A DNA stretch of 64,000 bases from Acetobacteraceae bacterium (lineage in GTDB: Bacteria > Pseudomonadota > Alphaproteobacteria > Acetobacterales > Acetobacteraceae): positions 310,001-374,000 of the forward strand of contig JARLIM010000021.1 in the NCBI GenBank assembly GCA_031291725.1, given 5' to 3'. Numbering within the stretch: the stretch's first letter is position 1; each line of letters begins with the position of its first letter. Shown here in pieces: positions 1,818 through 55,743 of this stretch. Below the pieces are notes generated by a model. It ran no database searches. It was not told the origin of the DNA and saw nothing but the letters and a program-made list of their open reading frames with translations. The translations under genes and the position numbers were made by a program.

Positions 1818-3485
1818 TTAAAACAGCCCGACAATCTCCCCATTGCCGTCCAGCCCGATGGCATGGGCGGCGGGTATTTTCGGCAGGCCGGGCATCGTCA
1901 TGATGTCGCCGCACAGCGCCACCACAAATCCCGCCCCCGCCGCCAGCCGCACATCGCGCACCGGCAGCGTGTGGCCGGTGGGGGCGCCCATCACATGCGG
2001 ATCGGCGGTGAAGCTCATCTGCGTCTTGGCCATGCAGATCGGGAAGCGGCCATAACCGGCCTCCTCATAGTGTCGCAGTTTGCGGGCAGCCATCGGGGAG
2101 AGCGCGATGTCGGACGCACGATAGATTTTGGTGGCGATCGTGCGGATCTTGTCCACCAGCTTCATCTCGTCCGGATAGATCGGCGCGAAATTGGCAGCGC
2201 CGGACTCGATGCGCTTGACCACCGCCCGCGCCAGCGTTTCCGCCCCCTTCGCGCCATCGGCCCAATGGGTGCACAGCGCCATCTCCACCCCCACGCCGCG
2301 CAAGGCCGCGTTGACCACGGCAATCTCGGCATCGGTGTCCGAGGTGAAACGGTTGAGGGCGACGACCACCGGCAGGCCGAAGCTCTGCATGTTCTCCACA
2401 TGGCGCAGCAGATTGACCACGCCACGCTGCACCGCCTCGGTGTCTTCCCGGCCCAGATCGGCCTTGGCGACATTGCCGTGCATCTTCAGCGCCCGCACCG
2501 TGCCCACCACCACCGCACAGCCAGGCTTCAGCCCGCCCATCCGGCTTTTGATGTCGAGGAATTTCTCGCCGCCCAGATCGGCCCCGAAGCCCGCTTCCGT
2601 GACAACGATATCGGCCAATTTCATCGCCGTGCGGGTGGCGATCAGCGAATTGCAGCCATGGGCGATATTGGCGAACGGCCCGCCATGCACCAGGGCCGGC
2701 GTGCGCTCCAGCGTCTGCACCAGATTGGGCTGCAAGGCGGTCTTCAACAGCACCGCCATCGCGCCATCGGCCTTCAGATCGGCCGCCGTCACCGGCTTAC
2801 CCTCCCGCGTCTGCGCCACAACGATGCGCCCCAGACGGGCTTGCAGATCGGCCAGATCGGCGGCGAGGCAGAACACCGCCATCACTTCGGAGGCAACCGT
2901 GATATCAAACCCATCCTCGCGCACCGGCCCATTGGTGCTGCCCATGCCGGTGACGATGGACCGCAACGCACGGTCATTCAAGTCCATCACCCGCTTCCAG
3001 GTGATCTTGCGCGTGTCGATACCCAGCGCGTTGCCGTGATGCAGATGGTTGTCGATCAGCGCCGAGAGCAGGTTATGCGCGCTGGTGATGGCGTGGAAAT
3101 CGCCGGTGAAATGCAGGTTGATGTCCTCCATCGGACCCACCTGCGCCCAACCGCCGCCCGTCGCCCCGCCTTTCACACCGAAACACGGCCCCAGACTCGG
3201 CTCACGCAAGGCGATCATCGCCCGTTTGCCAATCAGGCGCAGCGCATCGGCCAGCCCGACCGTCGTGGTGGTCTTGCCCTCACCGGCAGGCGTGGGCGAG
3301 ATGCCGCTGACCAGCACCAGTGCACCATCCGGGCGATCCCGCAGCGAGGCGATGAAGGATGCGCTGATCTTGGCCTTGGTGCGACCATACGGCTCCAACG
3401 CCTCATCTGGGATGCCCGCAATGGCGGCGATCTCGGCAATCGGGCGCAAAGCGACGCGGTGGGCGATGTCGAGATCAGTGGTCAT
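1818..3485 (-). CDS. fhs: Formate-tetrahydrofolate ligase
   Basis: Catalyses ATP-dependent formylation of tetrahydrofolate to 10-formyl-THF, feeding purine and formyl-Met synthesis or one-carbon assimilation. The protein is 555 residues, the usual length for the monofunctional enzyme. The P-loop [16 protein letters not shown] lies near residue 65. Other diagnostic blocks are [36 protein letters not shown] and the internal [14 protein letters not shown]. The ATG at 3485 is chosen because it begins [16 protein letters not shown] and has GGAG about 11 bases upstream; a longer frame would need TTG. No one-carbon genes sit next to it in the window. Confidence 0.97.
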
Positions 3486-3623
3486 GCCGGATTCGTCTCC
3501 CCACGGGTTTGACCGCAATGTGCCGACAGCCGGGGGTGACGTCCATATGGCGAGCTTGACATCGATACCACGTTGGTGATTCCGCTGAATTTGGTTCGCG
3601 TTTTATTTGGGGAACACAATCAT

Positions 3624-20264: not shown

Positions 20265-20338
20265 CCAGCAACATCCTTATCATGGCGGCCGCCGTACCCC
20301 CCGATACGGTTCCGAATTGGCGGTTATCCCCCTTATGC

Positions 20339-20384
20339 GTCGTTGCGAGGAACGCTGCACACACGCAGCGCTCCCCACAACGAC
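20339..20384. repeat. GTCGTTGCGAGG-type hairpin after the MFS gene
   Basis: Inverted repeat with left end GTCGTTGCGAGGAACGCTGC and right end GCAGCGCTCCCCACAACGAC, in the 127-base gap between the MFS gene and isobutyryl-CoA dehydrogenase (both leftward). It is a variant of the GTCATTGCGAGG family and likely terminates or attenuates MFS transcription. Confidence 0.65.
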
Positions 20385-20391
20385 GACAATC

Positions 20392-21923: not shown

Positions 21924-24257
21924 TCATGTTGTCAGCAACCCGCCCAAGCATTCCAAGCTCCGCAATTCGCCCTCTGGCACAATAACGCGCATCGCGCTCC
22001 AGGGCAGCACGTAGTCACCGCTGGCCAGTGCCTCCACCGTCACGCGATCAGGCGCCCAACGCAGCGTGATGGCAACCCACGTGACGGCTCCAGCCACGCT
22101 GATGCCGTCATCCTCGATCAGGTCGAACCGGCTCTCACCCGTGCCCGGTCCTGGAAAGACCAGCAATTCCCGACTCGGCTCATCATGCAATGTCTGACGC
22201 GACACCCGCCCGGCCAACGGCACAATGCCACCGGCGGGCACAAACAGCGGCAATTTCGACAAGGGAGCTTCGGTGGTGATGCTCTGCCCCGCGGCAAATC
22301 GCTCGCCACTCCAGAAATCGAACCAACATTGCGGCCCGGCCGGCAGATAAACACGCCGCAGCAAAGCCCCCGCTTCCACCACCGGGGCGGCGAGCACATT
22401 GGGGCCGAGCATCAGATCCGGACAATCCGCCCAGGCGAGCGCATCGGCGGGGAAATGCGCGAATGTCGGCAAAAGCGGCGGCGTGCCGTCTTCGGATTGC
22501 CGGACCATCAGCGAATAGAAATACGGCATCAGGCGATAGCGCAGCCGGATCGCCTCCCGCACATCGGCGAGCACCTCCTCATGCAGCCAGGGCGAGGTGT
22601 AGATGCCGTCCGGCTTCCAGGAATTCATGATGAAACGCGGATGCAGCGCGCCCGCCTGGGTCCAGCGCACCAGCAATTCCGCATCCGGCACCGGGCCGGA
22701 GAAGCCGCCGACATCGTGGCCGGTGTTGCCGATGCCCGACAGGCTCATCGTGAGCCCCGTCCGCAGCCCCCAGGCGAGACCGCGCCACGAGGTTTCGTTG
22801 TCGCCGCTCCAACTCTGCGCATAACGCTGAATGCCCGGCATGCCCGCGCGGCTGATGGTGAAGCCGCGCTCGTCCGGCGCATGGGCCAGTGTGGCTTCCA
22901 ACGTGGCGCGGCTCATCAAATGGCACTGCACCGGCCGCGCCAGATTGAACGTCACCGACAGACCGAAACCCTCGCAGATCGCGGTTTCGTCATCAAACCC
23001 GTATTCGTTGTTGTCATTCCACCCAGCGGTGATGCCGGTGGCCAGCACATCGCGCGACACGCCGCCTTGCCACCAGGCCACCGCAATCGGATTGGTGAAA
23101 TCCAGATGCGCGCCCTCGCCATCCCAGAACTGGCGCATGACGGGCTTACCATCGTCCCCCATCACATAGCCCGCCTGTGGCTCCTGATAACGCGGATGAT
23201 CGTCGAGCAGGCAGGGCTTGATATTGGCCACCACCCGCATCCCGGCCTCGGCAAAGCGCCGCATCATCGCCTTCGGTTCCGGGTATTTCGAACGGTTCCA
23301 GGTGAAGACGTAGCGCTTCGCGCCGATCATCGTGTAGCCGGAGCCAACATGGAATCCGCTGATCGGGATCTGATCGGCAATGCAGCGGTCGATAAACTGC
23401 GCCGACCGCTCCTGCCCGTTCGGGCTATCGGCAAGCGCCATCGCGGTTTGCGAAAACCCCAATGTCCAGCGCGGCACTTTCGGCGGACGCCCCGTCAGGG
23501 CCAGGAATTTCCGCGTCACATCCACCACGCCGGGGCCGGGAAAGACGTAGTAATCCAGATCGCCATCGCCCGCTTCATAGGTGCGGAACAGGCCATAATA
23601 ATTGTCGTGCTCGCAGCCGAGATCGACCGCCGCCTCGGCCAGATTGTCATAGAACACGCCCGATGCCACGCCGCTCTGCCCATCCACGGCGATCAGGAAC
23701 GGCCAATGCTTATACATCGGATCGCCGCGTTCGGGGTCATAGCCCAGGCTGTCCCGCATCGCGATGCGCAACCGCCGCCCGTGCAGATCGAGTGGCCCGG
23801 TCTTGTCGCCCAGGCCGAAATAGCGGTCCCGCCGATCACGGGCGAAAGCATGCAGGATGCGGTTCTGGCCGAACATCACCGGATGCGTCTGCCGCTCGCG
23901 CGCGAACACCGTGCCATCGGGCAGCGACCAGACGATGCCGAACGGGGCCAGTCGGATGCTGGCGATCATCTCGGGGGCCACAAGACGGATTTCGTCCTCA
24001 TATTGCTCCACGGCCGCCAGCCCCTCCGGCCAGCCGGATTCGTCATCGCGATCCAACCCCTGCCACGGCGTATCAACCAAACCGGGACGCAGCACCGACC
24101 AGGATTTACGCGCGCGAAATCCCTCGGCGCGCCGGAACAACACGCGGCCCAGATCGGGGCCGAGGATGGAGACGCGGCAAAGCAGCCCATGGCCGCAATC
24201 GAGTTCAACGCCGCGCGCCGTGATGGCGTGCAGAGTGGCGGAGCGGACGGGTTTCAT
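21924..24257 (-). CDS. Glycoside hydrolase family 31 (alpha-glycosidase)
   Basis: 777-residue GH31 enzyme, a retaining alpha-glycosidase. The nucleophile Asp is in ITAGWNDNNEYGFDDE near residue 415 and the acid/base Asp in SWSGDNETSWRGL near residue 485. The downstream GIGNTGHDVGGFSGPVPDAE block and the N-terminal beta-sandwich region also fit the family. No signal peptide is visible, so it is probably cytoplasmic and acts on imported oligosaccharides. Its start overlaps the ABC ATPase stop by four bases (ATGA), placing it last in a sugar-uptake operon. Alpha-glucosidase is the default guess; alpha-xylosidase is also possible. Confidence 0.93.
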   Translation of the reverse strand: MKPVRSATLHAITARGVELDCGHGLLCRVSILGPDLGRVLFRRAEGFRARKSWSVLRPGLVDTPWQGLDRDDESGWPEGLAAVEQYEDEIRLVAPEMIASIRLAPFGIVWSLPDGTVFARERQTHPVMFGQNRILHAFARDRRDRYFGLGDKTGPLDLHGRRLRIAMRDSLGYDPERGDPMYKHWPFLIAVDGQSGVASGVFYDNLAEAAVDLGCEHDNYYGLFRTYEAGDGDLDYYVFPGPGVVDVTRKFLALTGRPPKVPRWTLGFSQTAMALADSPNGQERSAQFIDRCIADQIPISGFHVGSGYTMIGAKRYVFTWNRSKYPEPKAMMRRFAEAGMRVVANIKPCLLDDHPRYQEPQAGYVMGDDGKPVMRQFWDGEGAHLDFTNPIAVAWWQGGVSRDVLATGITAGWNDNNEYGFDDETAICEGFGLSVTFNLARPVQCHLMSRATLEATLAHAPDERGFTISRAGMPGIQRYAQSWSGDNETSWRGLAWGLRTGLTMSLSGIGNTGHDVGGFSGPVPDAELLVRWTQAGALHPRFIMNSWKPDGIYTSPWLHEEVLADVREAIRLRYRLMPYFYSLMVRQSEDGTPPLLPTFAHFPADALAWADCPDLMLGPNVLAAPVVEAGALLRRVYLPAGPQCWFDFWSGERFAAGQSITTEAPLSKLPLFVPAGGIVPLAGRVSRQTLHDEPSRELLVFPGPGTGESRFDLIEDDGISVAGAVTWVAITLRWAPDRVTVEALASGDYVLPWSAMRVIVPEGELRSLECLGGLLTT

Positions 24258-25336
24258 GCGGCATCCTTTCGCGCGAGCGCCAATCCGGCCGCATCAAACA
24301 CATGCAAATTCTCGCGCGGCAGGCCGATATGGGCCGTCTCTCCCAGACGGAGCGATGTCTGCCCGGCGATCTGCACCGTGAGATCGAACGCATCGATGCG
24401 CACCGTGGACAGCCCGCCCAATTGCTCCACTAGCGTGATGCCGCCCTTGACCACACCAACCGGGTCGATCGCCGCATGCTCGGGTCTGATACCGAGCGTG
24501 AGCCTCGCCCCCGGCGCCAGCCCATCGGCCCGCCGATCCGTCGCCACCAGACCGAAGCCCGGCAACGACACCACCGCACAGCCATCGCGCGCCTCGGCAA
24601 ATTCGCCGTCGAGGAAGTTCATCCGAGGCGAGCCGATAAAGCCCGCCACGAAGCGGTTGGCAGGCGCGTTGTAGAGATCGAGCGGCCGCCCCACCTGCTC
24701 CACCCGCCCGGCGCGCAGCACCACGATCTGATCGGCGAGCGTCATCGCCTCCACCTGATCATGGGTGACATAGACCATCGTCGATTGCAGCCGCCGATGC
24801 AGGGCGGCGAGTTCGGCGCGCATATCCACCCGCAATTCGGCATCGAGGTTGGACAGCGGCTCATCGAACAGGAAGATCTTCGGCTCTCGCACAATCGCCC
24901 GCCCAATCGCCACACGCTGGCGCTGGCCGCCGGAGAGGGCGGTGGGTTTGCGGCTCAGATACGGCTCCAACCGCAACATCCGCGCCGCCTCCGCCACACG
25001 GCGCGCGATCTCGGCCTTGGGCGTTGCGATGTTCTCCAGCCCGAACGCCATGTTCTGATAGACGGTCATATGCGGATACAGCGCGTAGGACTGGAACACC
25101 ATCGCCAGCCCCCGCCGCGCCGCCGCCACGTCATTGACCTCCGCGCCATCGATGACGACCTCGCCGGAGGTCACACTCTCCAGCCCACAGATCATCCGCA
25201 ACAGCGTCGATTTGCCGCAGCCCGAGGGGCCAACGAACACGGTGAAGCTGCCATCCGGCACCTCGAAGGAGACGTTGTGGATCACCTTGGATGTGCCGAA
25301 TTGTTTGCACACATCCCGCACGGATAGCGCGCCCAT
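24254..25336 (-). CDS. Sugar ABC transporter ATP-binding protein (MalK/UgpC/AglK type)
   Basis: 360-residue ATPase of a CUT1 sugar importer. Walker A GPSGCGKSTLLRMICGLE near residue 38, signature LSGGQRQRVAIGRAI, Walker B KIFLFDEPLSNLDAELR, and a C-terminal OB-like regulatory extension (LTLGIRPEHAAIDPVG) that separates MalK-type ATPases from others. The start at 25336 (MGALSVRDVCKQFG) overlaps the permease stop by one base. Downstream of it is the GH31 gene. Confidence 0.95.
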   Translation of the reverse strand: MGALSVRDVCKQFGTSKVIHNVSFEVPDGSFTVFVGPSGCGKSTLLRMICGLESVTSGEVVIDGAEVNDVAAARRGLAMVFQSYALYPHMTVYQNMAFGLENIATPKAEIARRVAEAARMLRLEPYLSRKPTALSGGQRQRVAIGRAIVREPKIFLFDEPLSNLDAELRVDMRAELAALHRRLQSTMVYVTHDQVEAMTLADQIVVLRAGRVEQVGRPLDLYNAPANRFVAGFIGSPRMNFLDGEFAEARDGCAVVSLPGFGLVATDRRADGLAPGARLTLGIRPEHAAIDPVGVVKGGITLVEQLGGLSTVRIDAFDLTVQIAGQTSLRLGETAHIGLPRENLHVFDAAGLALARKDAA

Positions 25337-26379
25337 CACTTCACCCCCGCAGAGGCGATGCCCTGCGCAATATGTTTTTGCAGCACCATGAAAATCGCCG
25401 TCACCGGCAGCAGAGTCAGCACCGTCATCGCCAGCAGATAATGCCATTGCGTGGTCAACTCGCCCTGGAATGAGTTGAGGGCCAGCGGCAGGGTGAAGCT
25501 CTCCGACCGGGTGAGCACCACCATCGGCCAGAGAAACTCATTCCAGCGCCACATCACCGAGAATATCGCCAGCACCGCAAGGGCCGGGGCGGAGAGCGGC
25601 AGCACGATGCGCCAATAGATCCGCCACTCCGACGCATTGTCCATCCGCGCCGCCTCGATCAACTCGTCAGGCAGCGTGAGCATGTATTGCCGCAACAGGA
25701 ACACCCCTGTCGGTGTGGCAACGGCCGGCCAGATCACGCCCCAAGGTGTGTCGGTCAGGCCCAATTGGCTGGCGATGAGGTAGTTGGGCACCAGCACAAT
25801 CGTGGGCGGGATCATCAGTGTGGCCAGCATCAGCAGAAACACCGGATCGCGCCCGGCAAATTTGTATTTGCTCAACGCGAAGGCGGCCATGGAGTTCATC
25901 AGCAGCGTGATCAGTGTTGCCACCACGGTGATGAACAGCGAGTTCCAGACAATCCGACCGAAGGCGAAGCGGCTGAACAGTTCGGTGAAATTCTCCCACG
26001 CCGCATGGAGGCGCATCACCGGGGTGCGCTCCTCCAGCTTCACCCGAATCAGCTTGTCCGGGGCCGCCGGATCGACGAGTTGCGATTGCAGCCCCATCCT
26101 GCGGACTTCCGCCAATGTCTCGCCCGCATGCGCGCCTGCGGTGACGGTGAACAGTTTCAGCGCGCCGCCACGTTGCGGCACTTCCACACTGGCCTGTTCA
26201 TAGGGAAGGATGGTGGGCGGGAATGCCTGTAAGCCGCTCTCGCTTTTCACCGAGGACAGCACCAGCCACAGCACCGGGCCGAACATGATCAGCGTGCCGA
26301 GGACGAGGTAGATGTGGGCGGCCCAATCGGTCCAGTCCCAGCCGATGCGCGCGCGGCGGGCGGTGAGCAGATTAGCCAT
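25336..26379 (-). CDS. Sugar ABC permease, MalG/AglG type, with a large periplasmic loop
   Basis: 347-residue inner-membrane permease of the CUT1 family. The coupling (EAA) motif is PDELIEAARMDNASEWRIYW followed by RIVLPLSAPA. About six TM segments; residues ~43-128 between TM1 and TM2 form an unusually long hydrophilic loop (LPYEQASVEVPQRGG...) not found in short MalG proteins but known in alpha-glucoside AglG-type permeases. It ends at the ATPase start and overlaps the upstream permease end by eight bases. Confidence 0.92.
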   Translation of the reverse strand: MANLLTARRARIGWDWTDWAAHIYLVLGTLIMFGPVLWLVLSSVKSESGLQAFPPTILPYEQASVEVPQRGGALKLFTVTAGAHAGETLAEVRRMGLQSQLVDPAAPDKLIRVKLEERTPVMRLHAAWENFTELFSRFAFGRIVWNSLFITVVATLITLLMNSMAAFALSKYKFAGRDPVFLLMLATLMIPPTIVLVPNYLIASQLGLTDTPWGVIWPAVATPTGVFLLRQYMLTLPDELIEAARMDNASEWRIYWRIVLPLSAPALAVLAIFSVMWRWNEFLWPMVVLTRSESFTLPLALNSFQGELTTQWHYLLAMTVLTLLPVTAIFMVLQKHIAQGIASAGVK

Positions 26380-27346
26380 TCTTTTTCTGGCTCCCCTTCA
26401 TCTGCGCCAGCGTCAACACCAACAACACCCCCGCCAGCAGCAGCGAGGCGGCGGCGGCGAGGCCGTATTGGCGGATTTGATCGGCAAAGCCGGTTTTGTA
26501 GATGTACTGCACCACGAACACCGTCGCCGAGCCGGGGCCACCGCCGGTGAGCACATAGACCTCGTCGAAGACCTGCACCGCGCGGATCAGGCCGAGCACG
26601 AGCACCACCATCACATTGGGCATCAACAAGGGCAGCGTGATGCGCCGGAAATGGCGCCAGGGCGGTGTGGCGTCCATCTGCGAGGCTTCGTTGATCTCCG
26701 CCGGAATCGCCTGCAGGCCTGCCAGCAGGATCAGCGTGTAGAAGCCCATATGCGCCCAGATCGAGACGAACACGCTCCAGAAGAACGCCCAATGCGGATC
26801 GAGCAGCCAATTCGTCGGCTCCGCCCCCACCCCGATCATCGCCGCGTTCAGCAAGCCCTCGCGTTGCAGAATCCACTTCCAGATCAGGGCGACGACCACC
26901 GGCGAGAGCAGCACCGGATAAAAGAACGCCGCCCGGAAAAAGCTGCGTCCGATGATCTTTCTGTTCAGCACAATGGCCGTCAGCAGGCTGAAAGCCAGCA
27001 TCAGCCCCACCTGAAAGACCACAAAGCGCAGCGTGTTCCACACCCCGTGCCAGAACAGATCGCGATGACAGGTGTTGGCGTCGAAATGGTCGGTGCAGTC
27101 CAGCAGGGATGCGAAATTCTCCGCCCCCACATAAGGCCGCTGCGACGGCAACAGATTGGTGCCGCCGGTGAGGGCGTAGTGGATGTCGAAGGCTATCGGC
27201 AGAAAGGTGAACAGCGCAAAGACCGCCAGATTCGGCGCCACGAACACCCACCCCAGACGCCCCTTGCTCAACCGGCCCTGCGCCCAGCGCATCGGGCGTT
27301 CGGGAAGGTTCATCAGAAAGGCGAACAGGGTGGAGATCGGGTTCAT
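26372..27346 (-). CDS. Sugar ABC permease, MalF/AglF type
   Basis: 324-residue CUT1 permease partner. The N-terminal cytoplasmic segment is followed by TM1 (LAVFALFTFLPIAFDIHYAL), then a periplasmic loop with two Cys residues (CTDHFDANTCHRD) that could form a disulfide. The EAA motif is PAEINEASQMDATPPWRHF then RRITLPLLMPN. It forms a heterodimer with the downstream permease. A 143-base gap with a strong palindrome separates it from the binding-protein gene, the classic position for an mRNA-stabilising element. Confidence 0.92.
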   Translation of the reverse strand: MNPISTLFAFLMNLPERPMRWAQGRLSKGRLGWVFVAPNLAVFALFTFLPIAFDIHYALTGGTNLLPSQRPYVGAENFASLLDCTDHFDANTCHRDLFWHGVWNTLRFVVFQVGLMLAFSLLTAIVLNRKIIGRSFFRAAFFYPVLLSPVVVALIWKWILQREGLLNAAMIGVGAEPTNWLLDPHWAFFWSVFVSIWAHMGFYTLILLAGLQAIPAEINEASQMDATPPWRHFRRITLPLLMPNVMVVLVLGLIRAVQVFDEVYVLTGGGPGSATVFVVQYIYKTGFADQIRQYGLAAAASLLLAGVLLVLTLAQMKGSQKKNG

Positions 27347-27391
27347 GCACCTACTCTGAAATCGTCATAGCGAGGAACAACGCTTGCGGAA

Positions 27392-27458
27392 GGTGCCAAT
27401 TCCGCAGGAATTGCACCTTCTGCCGGGCCGATGGTGCAATTCCTGCGGAATTGGCACC
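27392..27458. repeat. Perfect 26-bp inverted repeat between binding protein and permease genes
   Basis: Left arm 27392-27417 begins GGTGCCAATTCC and right arm 27433-27458 ends GGAATTGGCACC; the arms are exact reverse complements with a 15-base loop. Each arm is itself nearly palindromic around AATTCC-GC-AGGAATT, so alternative single or double hairpins can form. Its site matches the E. coli malE-malF REP position, where such structures protect upstream mRNA. Confidence 0.9.
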
Positions 27459-27489
27459 CTACGCCTTCTCGCAACAGCCGGTTGGCCTC

Positions 27490-28749
27490 TTACTTTTTGC
27501 TCGCCGCCACCGCATCGGCCACGTCGGACGTGATGCGCGCATAGGCCTGATCGAGCGTCATCTGGCCGGCCATCACGGCGGCGATGCGATCAGCCACCGC
27601 GCCGAAGATCGGGCGGCTCATCACGTCACCCTGCAGCTTGTAGGCCAGCGGGGTCAGCGTTGCCGCATCGGCGCCGAATTGCTGGATCGCCGCCGTGCCC
27701 GCCTTGGAGAGCTTGTACGGCAGTCCCTTCTTCTGCAACGCCACATTGGCCGGCACGTTGGAGGTCATCACCATCCATTCGGCATAGACCGGCGCCGAGG
27801 CCAGATAATCGAGGAATGCGCCGACATCCTTCGGGTGCTTGCTGTGCTTCAGCGCCACGAAAGCCGCGCCGCCGGGCATCCCTGTGCAGCCACCGCGACC
27901 ACAAGGCTCGGCTCCCACCACCCAGTCAAACCCATCGCCCACCGTCTTTTCCAGGCGAGAGAGTTGCCAGGAGCCGGAGAGATAGACAGCGATGCGGCCA
28001 TTGGCGAAATCGTCAAAGGCGTCGCGATAGCCGGTGGCCGCCTGCGACCAGATATCGCCCTTGACGGTGCCATCCTTCGCCCAGGCCACATAGCGGCTGG
28101 CCATTGCCTTGAAGCCGTCATCGATCACCGCCGGGCTGCCATCGGCGGCGAAATATGTCGCGCCCATCGAGATCGACGGGCCTGCGAAGCGGGCACCGGA
28201 GCGGTCCCACGCCATGCCGCCGACGATCTTGGTGGCCTCTTTGACCTGCTTGACCGCCGTCGCCCACTCATCCCACGTCGCCCCCGCCTTCGGTACCGCC
28301 ACACCCGCCTGATCGAACAGCGTTTTGTTGACCAGCGGGGCGGAAATCGTCAGCTGCGTCATCAGGCCGTAAATGCCGTGATCGTTGGCATCGCGCCGCA
28401 TCCAGCCCAGCGTGCCGCCGTAATTGGCTTCCCAATAGGCGGGGTCTTTCACATAGGGCGTCAGGTCGAGCATGTATGCCATGATCGGCCCGAAATCGGT
28501 GGTGCGCACAATGTCCGGCCCTTGGCCTGCGGCAAGTTGCACCGGCAGGCTTTCCTGGATCGCCTTGAACGACATTTTGTCGATGGCGATCTTGATGTCC
28601 GGGTTGGCCTGCATGAAGCGGGCGGCGAGAATCTCGGTGGATTCGCACTCATTGCCATCGGAATAACAGGCAATCCGCACCTCTCCGGCGCGCGCCGTGG
28701 CAGATGTGAGCAACACGGCAAGGCTTGCGGCAATGATGGCGTGGCGCAC
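27490..28749 (-). CDS. Sugar ABC transporter substrate-binding protein
   Basis: 419-residue periplasmic binding protein (SBP family 1). A Sec signal peptide occupies about residues 1-21 (IIAASLAVLLTSATARA-GEV), followed by ARFMQANPDIKIAIDKMSFK and LAAGQGPDIVRTTDF, typical of CUT1 binding proteins. Start is GTG at 28749 with GGGAGA upstream; no suitable ATG is near. It leads the operon binding protein - permease - permease - ATPase - GH31, the order known for alpha-glucoside (aglEFG...K) importers, so an alpha-linked oligosaccharide is the likely ligand. Confidence 0.92.
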   Translation of the reverse strand: MRHAIIAASLAVLLTSATARAGEVRIACYSDGNECESTEILAARFMQANPDIKIAIDKMSFKAIQESLPVQLAAGQGPDIVRTTDFGPIMAYMLDLTPYVKDPAYWEANYGGTLGWMRRDANDHGIYGLMTQLTISAPLVNKTLFDQAGVAVPKAGATWDEWATAVKQVKEATKIVGGMAWDRSGARFAGPSISMGATYFAADGSPAVIDDGFKAMASRYVAWAKDGTVKGDIWSQAATGYRDAFDDFANGRIAVYLSGSWQLSRLEKTVGDGFDWVVGAEPCGRGGCTGMPGGAAFVALKHSKHPKDVGAFLDYLASAPVYAEWMVMTSNVPANVALQKKGLPYKLSKAGTAAIQQFGADAATLTPLAYKLQGDVMSRPIFGAVADRIAAVMAGQMTLDQAYARITSDVADAVAASKK

Positions 28750-34563: not shown

Positions 34564-34602
34564 TCCAAGGCGCCCCCGCCAGAGCCATAAACAATTCAAA
34601 CC

Positions 34603-34688
34603 GTCATTGCGAGGAGCGCTTGCGACGAAGCAACCCGCCGAGCCACATGATGCGTCTCGATGGATTGCTTCGCTGCGCTCGCAATGAC
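34603..34688. repeat. GTCATTGCGAGG palindromic element in liv operon 1
   Basis: Inverted repeat between binding-protein and livH genes. Left end GTCATTGCGAGGAGCGCTTG and ACGAAGCAACCC; right end GGATTGCTTCG and GCTCGCAATGAC. One of the most complete copies of the dispersed family, comparable to 55653-55741. Confidence 0.88.
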
Positions 34689-34707
34689 GCGACTTAACAG
34701 TGATGCA

Positions 34708-40887: not shown

Positions 40888-40896
40888 CCCCTCATC

Positions 40897-40985
40897 GTCA
40901 TTGCGAGGCGCAAAAGGCGACGCGGCAATCCATCGAAATGCCGCCTGAAGTCTCGATGGATTGCTTCGCTTGCCTCGCAATAACG
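40897..40985. repeat. GTCATTGCGAGG palindromic element between prpB and prpE
   Basis: Inverted repeat starting GTCATTGCGAGGCGCAAAAG, with inner GCAATCCATCGA/TCGATGGATTGC, ending CCTCGCAATAACG. The right terminus has T-A instead of the usual GCAATGAC. It fills most of the 124-base prpB-prpE gap. Confidence 0.85.
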
Positions 40986-53399: not shown

Positions 53400-53434
53400 C
53401 GGCGGCACCGCCTCCTGGGTTGGATCGTCAAACC

Positions 53435-53478
53435 GTCATTGCAAGCGCGACGCGGCACTCCACCGCGCTTGCAATGAC
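53435..53478. repeat. Short GTCATTGC hairpin between binding protein and livH (system 2)
   Basis: Perfect 15-bp stem GTCATTGCAAGCGCG/CGCGCTTGCAATGAC with a 14-base loop. A minimal member of the dispersed family, located like a transcript-processing or attenuating structure. Confidence 0.85.
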
Positions 53479-53502
53479 GCATATCAGGCTGAATTCAGCC
53501 GG

Positions 53503-55606: not shown

Positions 55607-55652
55607 GAAACCCTCCCCTTCCCTCTCACCAACCCGTCATTCCCCCCTTTCC

Positions 55653-55741
55653 GTCATTGCGAGGAGGGAACCGACGAAGCAACCCAGGAGTCACACCAAC
55701 TGACTCCTGGGTTGCTTCGTCACTGCGTTCCTCGCAATGAC
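55653..55741. repeat. Long GTCATTGCGAGG palindrome between tautomerase and dehydrogenase genes
   Basis: Arms of 41 bases: outer 13 bp GTCATTGCGAGGA/TCCTCGCAATGAC, a largely mismatched 7-base bulge, then a 21-bp inner stem containing ACGAAGCAACCCAGGAGTCA, with a 7-base loop CACCAAC. One of the most complete copies in the window. Occupies the 137-base gap within the operon. Confidence 0.9.
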
Positions 55742-55743
55742 GG

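Follow-up and report, generated by a model that had tools for sequence, protein, structure and literature searches.

In the window, by which we mean the whole stretch of 64,000 nucleotides analysed here, genes on the minus strand follow one another in the order solute-binding protein (27490..28749; PF01547, E=8.1e-26), ABC permease (26372..27346; PF00528, E=2.8e-15), second ABC permease (25336..26379; PF00528, E=7.7e-21), MalK/UgpC-type ABC ATPase (24254..25447; NF008653, 453.8 bits with a cut-off of 432) and GH31 glycosidase. The gap of 143 nt between the binding-protein gene upstream and the first permease gene downstream, both genes of a sugar transporter, contains a palindromic element. 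This placement had been proposed in the original prediction, and it is borne out by the Pfam matches on either side.

The element contains a perfect 26-bp inverted repeat with arms (27392-27417 and 27433-27458) that are 15 nt apart, and each arm is itself palindromic, with an 11-bp stem (5 bp, a bulged C, and 6 bp) and a 3-nt loop. Both the repeat and its palindromic arms had been predicted at exactly these coordinates; only the limits of the unit shift, from 27392-27458 to 27388-27462. No other perfect inverted repeat of the window with a gap of up to 30 nt is as long, and six first-order Markov shuffles of the window gave longest repeats of only 10-12 bp. Pairing continues outward beyond the 26-bp arms to give a 39-nt, 90% pair (27386-27424/27426-27464). 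A 22-nt arm pattern, allowing up to 3 mismatches, has two matches in the window against an expected 0.00, and both lie inside the element. No Rfam family matched the window above the gathering threshold, and the sub-threshold matches were nearly all to microRNA hairpins.

Within these limits the element has the make-up of a GTAG-type repetitive extragenic palindrome (REP) dimer of 75 nt on the minus strand, with two REP units arranged head to head (REPIN). Unit 1 (27433..27462, minus strand) consists of a GTAG head and a palindrome and has no differences from the 30-nt consensus unit. Unit 2 (27388..27417, plus strand) has a degenerate head, GGAA for GTAG, followed by an intact palindrome, and shows 2 differences. 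The 15-nt spacer between them (27418..27432) forms the loop of a long hairpin according to the fold and repeat analysis.

A dispersed GTAG repeat family and its transposase

The element belongs to a family with dispersed copies. When the 161 bases around it were searched against its own genome (3.39 Mb in 40 contigs, ~92% complete), at least 31 matches were found, and the places read comprise nine inverted dimers, including the window copy, and five single-unit places. The family unit is made up of the GTAG head, the stem strand GGTGC-C-AATTCC, the loop GCA and the return strand GGAATT-GCACC, and in dimers GTAG stands outside. A search of 60 genomes, the own genome among them, shows the family clearly in two: the own genome (G000) and that of a relative (G004), in which all 15 places read are dimers. 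These copy numbers are lower bounds, as scoring covered 15 of 32 candidates for G000 and 15 of 53 for G004. In the resulting set of 24 dimers, which comprises the window copy and 23 others from the two genomes, the heads point outward and are exactly GTAG in 38 of 48 cases; the window copy itself has one exact head out of two. It is intergenic, and crude ORF calling on 13 other family places was ambiguous for six. For a single 44-bp match in a further genome (G013, E=8e-4), the sequence read shows no GTAG head, and the match was treated as chance rather than as a family member.

Two REP dimers that are 96% identical (L016:1907-2034 and 3416-3543) lie in direct orientation 1509 bp apart, and the ORF between them (2065-3339) matches Sel1/TPR models only weakly, with scores under the cut-offs. 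At its start, contig C35 (L011:1-140) is an exact 140-nt reverse complement of the end of contig C27 (the end of L012) and includes a REP unit; the assembly breaks here at a longer repeat, perhaps an insertion sequence that adjoins REP units.

A gene for a REP-associated tyrosine transposase (RAYT) was found on contig C27 (C27:55421-55945, equal to L012:2122-2646) between two dimers of the family (C27:55301-55410 and C27:55956-56031). Its open frame begins MPNYRRMRVPGGTYFFT; when the frame is read through a single stop codon, the protein falls into NCBIfam NF047646, REP-associated tyrosine transposase, with E=1.1e-56. Among solved structures the closest is E. coli TnpAREP (4er8, E=9.2e-52), and an HuH motif is present at residue 59 together with a conserved-looking tyrosine near 128. 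Pfam PF01797 had no matches in the own genome, and the C27 gene has no Pfam match at all; given the strong NCBIfam match, the Pfam result is a false negative and not a sign that RAYT is missing. The reading frame is interrupted by one in-frame TGA at codon 53, where E. coli TnpAREP has a tryptophan, and this TGA may be real or may be an assembly error. A second RAYT of the own genome, on contig C38, is a broken remnant with a different GTAG-tagged palindrome beside it, and no intact RAYT was found in this ~92% complete assembly. Since the sole full-length RAYT found carries an in-frame stop, the REP family may now be immobile in its own genome.

RAYT relatives were present in 11 of the 60 genomes searched. 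All 13 RAYT loci inspected by eye have at least one GTAG-tagged palindrome within about 260 nt, and these palindromes differ in sequence from RAYT to RAYT, a pattern of RAYTs with their own neighbouring GTAG palindromes that is described as the REPtron in part of PMC3733652. The two RAYT loci of G004 contain no unit of the window REP family, and a cognate enzyme for the copies in that genome was not found. The proposal that the element is REP-like is borne out: it is a GTAG-type REP pair, and the genome that carries it also has a cognate transposase gene.

History of the junction

Orthologs of the binding protein were found in seven of eight genus genomes, own included. Of these seven, only the own genome has the REPIN at the binding-protein/permease junction, and no unit of the window family was found in the other six loci (for L102 the script did not locate the junction, and the whole 4.2-kb locus was free of the family unit). 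In three of them (L099, L101 and L103) the junction is very short and lacks any palindrome. A wider contig search returned orthologs from Rhodospirillales/Acetobacteraceae MAGs, from other alphaproteobacteria and, as one weak match, from Treponema, and the REPIN was absent from the 13 ortholog junctions inspected. The REPIN is not conserved at this site.

In the closest relative (L059, by sequence the same junction as the G004 locus L098), the gap contains a palindromic dimer of CGTC type, and similar sequence flanks the REPIN in the window. On the permease side, 27363..27387 (plus strand) resembles an older CGTC-type REP unit; its score of 15 in a blind local test was equalled by 2 of 1000 random sequences, and in a comparison with the L059 dimer none of 2000 shuffles did as well. 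On the binding-protein side, 27463..27474 (minus strand) is a probable remnant of the partner unit; it is identical to L059 at 11 of 12 positions (36 of 2000 shuffles did as well) and falls short of significance in the blind test (271 of 1000). Given this likeness of the flanks to the L059 dimer, the REPIN most probably lies within an earlier CGTC dimer that has lost its inner halves. The original prediction had described the element as unlike the CGTCATTGC family, and this is correct insofar as its core differs from the CGTCATTGC repeats elsewhere in the window; however, the CGTCATTGC-type remnants in the same gap (27363-27387 and 27463-27474) had been missed.

CGTC units are common in the own genome, with 85 matches on one strand and 80 on the other, as compared with 10 and 11 for a reversed-pattern control. 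The window itself has CGTC-type REP dimers at 34602-34689, 40896-40985 and 55652-55742, the last of which includes the second longest perfect inverted repeat of the window (21 bp from 55673), as well as shorter CGTC-headed palindromes of variant sequence at 53434-53479 and 20338-20386. In another genus genome (G001, L100), the junction downstream of the binding-protein gene has a different short CGTC-headed palindrome. Nesting was also considered as a general habit of the GTAG family and was rejected, as the flanks of the other 23 dimers score at most 12 against CGTC units whereas the permease side of the window copy scores 15.

Taken together, the dispersed copies, the dimers flanking the RAYT gene, the absence from the site in relatives and the CGTC-like flanks make it very probable that the element is a REPIN, a head-to-head pair of GTAG-tagged REP units from a family with dispersed copies, and mobile DNA that came to lie within a palindromic repeat already present. 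Against this stand the failure to find an intact RAYT in the own genome, the G004 RAYT loci without a unit of the family, the lack of a Pfam PF01797 match to the RAYT, the one degenerate GTAG head of the window copy, and the CGTC remnant on the binding-protein side, which is short and not supported by the blind test. In the proposed scenario, the REPIN would form its long hairpin as single-stranded DNA or RNA, RAYT would have acted on the single-stranded hairpin DNA and copied it to the junction, and it would have arrived when the CGTC dimer lost its inner part or afterwards. The most striking palindrome of the window is then explained as mobile DNA tied to a transposase family, and the nested site would give the relative order in which the GTAG and CGTC families arrived. 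Apart from the layering inside an older repeat, the element is ordinary.

Folding and possible effects on the message

Folded as RNA on the coding strand, the element forms a long hairpin of -62.7 kcal/mol (z = -10.5), as compared with -13.9 and -18.7 kcal/mol for the two arms folded apart, and the long form is favoured by about 30 kcal/mol. Covariation was assessed in 19 of the 24 dimers, with five long-spacer dimers (L010, L011, one of L012 and two of L016) left out of the alignment. Between the arms, 93.9% of cells are paired, five pairs are changed on both sides, and covariation is 0.110, a value that none of 500 shuffles reached (0.075 in these); related copies inflate this control, and copying between arms could mimic selection. 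Within the arms, 94.3% of cells are paired with no double changes and no excess of covariation (0.066 vs 0.070). Still, with these caveats, the REP pair behaves as one long hairpin, as is described for REPINs in part of PMC3116915. The nested palindromes had previously been thought to allow two competing folds, giving a possible switch or an RNase-protecting block; the alternatives would be the long hairpin and a separate hairpin for each arm. Both folds can indeed be drawn, each arm being an 11-bp hairpin, and during transcription the first arm could form its hairpin before the rest; nevertheless, REP dimers are ordinarily built of nested palindromes according to PMC3733652 and PMC3116915. 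Because of the energy gap, and because covariation is seen in the arm-to-arm pairs only, a balanced two-state RNA switch is highly improbable.

A REP element at malE-malF reportedly stabilises the upstream mRNA. At the present junction there are no terminator-like sites between 27000 and 28000 and no T-run at the hairpin. An intrinsic terminator or attenuator between the binding-protein and permease genes, which so stable a hairpin might suggest, is therefore a very poor candidate, the more so since the same sequence is found in many contexts, and read-through is to be expected. If the genes are co-transcribed, the chances are about even that the hairpin in the message would slow 3'-to-5' exonucleases and mildly stabilise the binding-protein part as a side effect. 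It is quite another matter whether the element is kept for its action as RNA, namely a block of 3'-to-5' decay, as at malE-malF, that would favour expression of the binding protein over that of the permease, its mobile origin being incidental. Its position on the same strand as the two genes, the predicted stability of the RNA hairpin and the expected read-through would all fit such a role, as would the CGTC dimer of G004 and the other short palindrome of G001 at the same junction; however, the family unit is absent from all six other genus loci with an ortholog, three short junctions do without a palindrome altogether, and many unrelated sites carry this sequence too. We consider maintenance of this kind unlikely, and selection for an mRNA-stabilising side effect is equally unlikely because the site is not conserved. 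Less likely again is a broader version, in which the junction would be a repeatedly used landing site (for the older CGTC dimer, the G001 palindrome and the nested GTAG REPIN) and unrelated mobile palindromes would be kept convergently, since any strong hairpin would raise the ratio of binding protein to permease. The REPIN reading accounts for the element as mobile DNA.

Relation to known REP systems

Our literature search for the string CGTCATTGCGAG returned a sole match to an unrelated plant paper, and searches on RAYT in Acetobacteraceae, REPs in Rhodospirillales and nested REPINs led to PMC3733652 or to nothing relevant, which does not prove absence from print. With the present case a Rhodospirillales-type alphaproteobacterium joins the known hosts of GTAG REPIN families, and there is one example of a GTAG dimer inside a CGTC dimer, two superfamilies that are treated apart in PMC3733652. 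The same paper reports for Anabaena variabilis that GTAG dimers lie within other palindromes, and gives CGTC repeats as missing in Acetobacteraceae, to which no exception is claimed here.

Unlike the CGTC-tagged REP dimers described in part of PMC3733652, the window element has GTAG heads and a RAYT partner, and a CGTC unit is present only in its flank at 27363. It shares with the REP/BIME elements and TnpAREP of E. coli, as far as described in part of PMC8266576, an imperfect palindrome directly after GTAG and an unpaired base in the stem. In contrast to those E. coli-type (malE-malF) REPs, which have a conserved AA-GC mismatch bulge in the stem, the window unit has a single bulged C and another stem sequence.

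The closest likeness is to the GTAG REP dimers, or REPINs, with RAYT in passages of PMC3733652 and PMC3116915. The stem GGTGC-C-AATTCC / GGAATT-GCACC appears to be the family's own, and the present family further differs in its low to moderate copy number and in the stop codon within its full-length RAYT. In common with these systems, it has outer GTAG heads, palindromic bodies, a head-to-head dimer that forms a long hairpin, dispersed copies, and copies flanking the RAYT gene.
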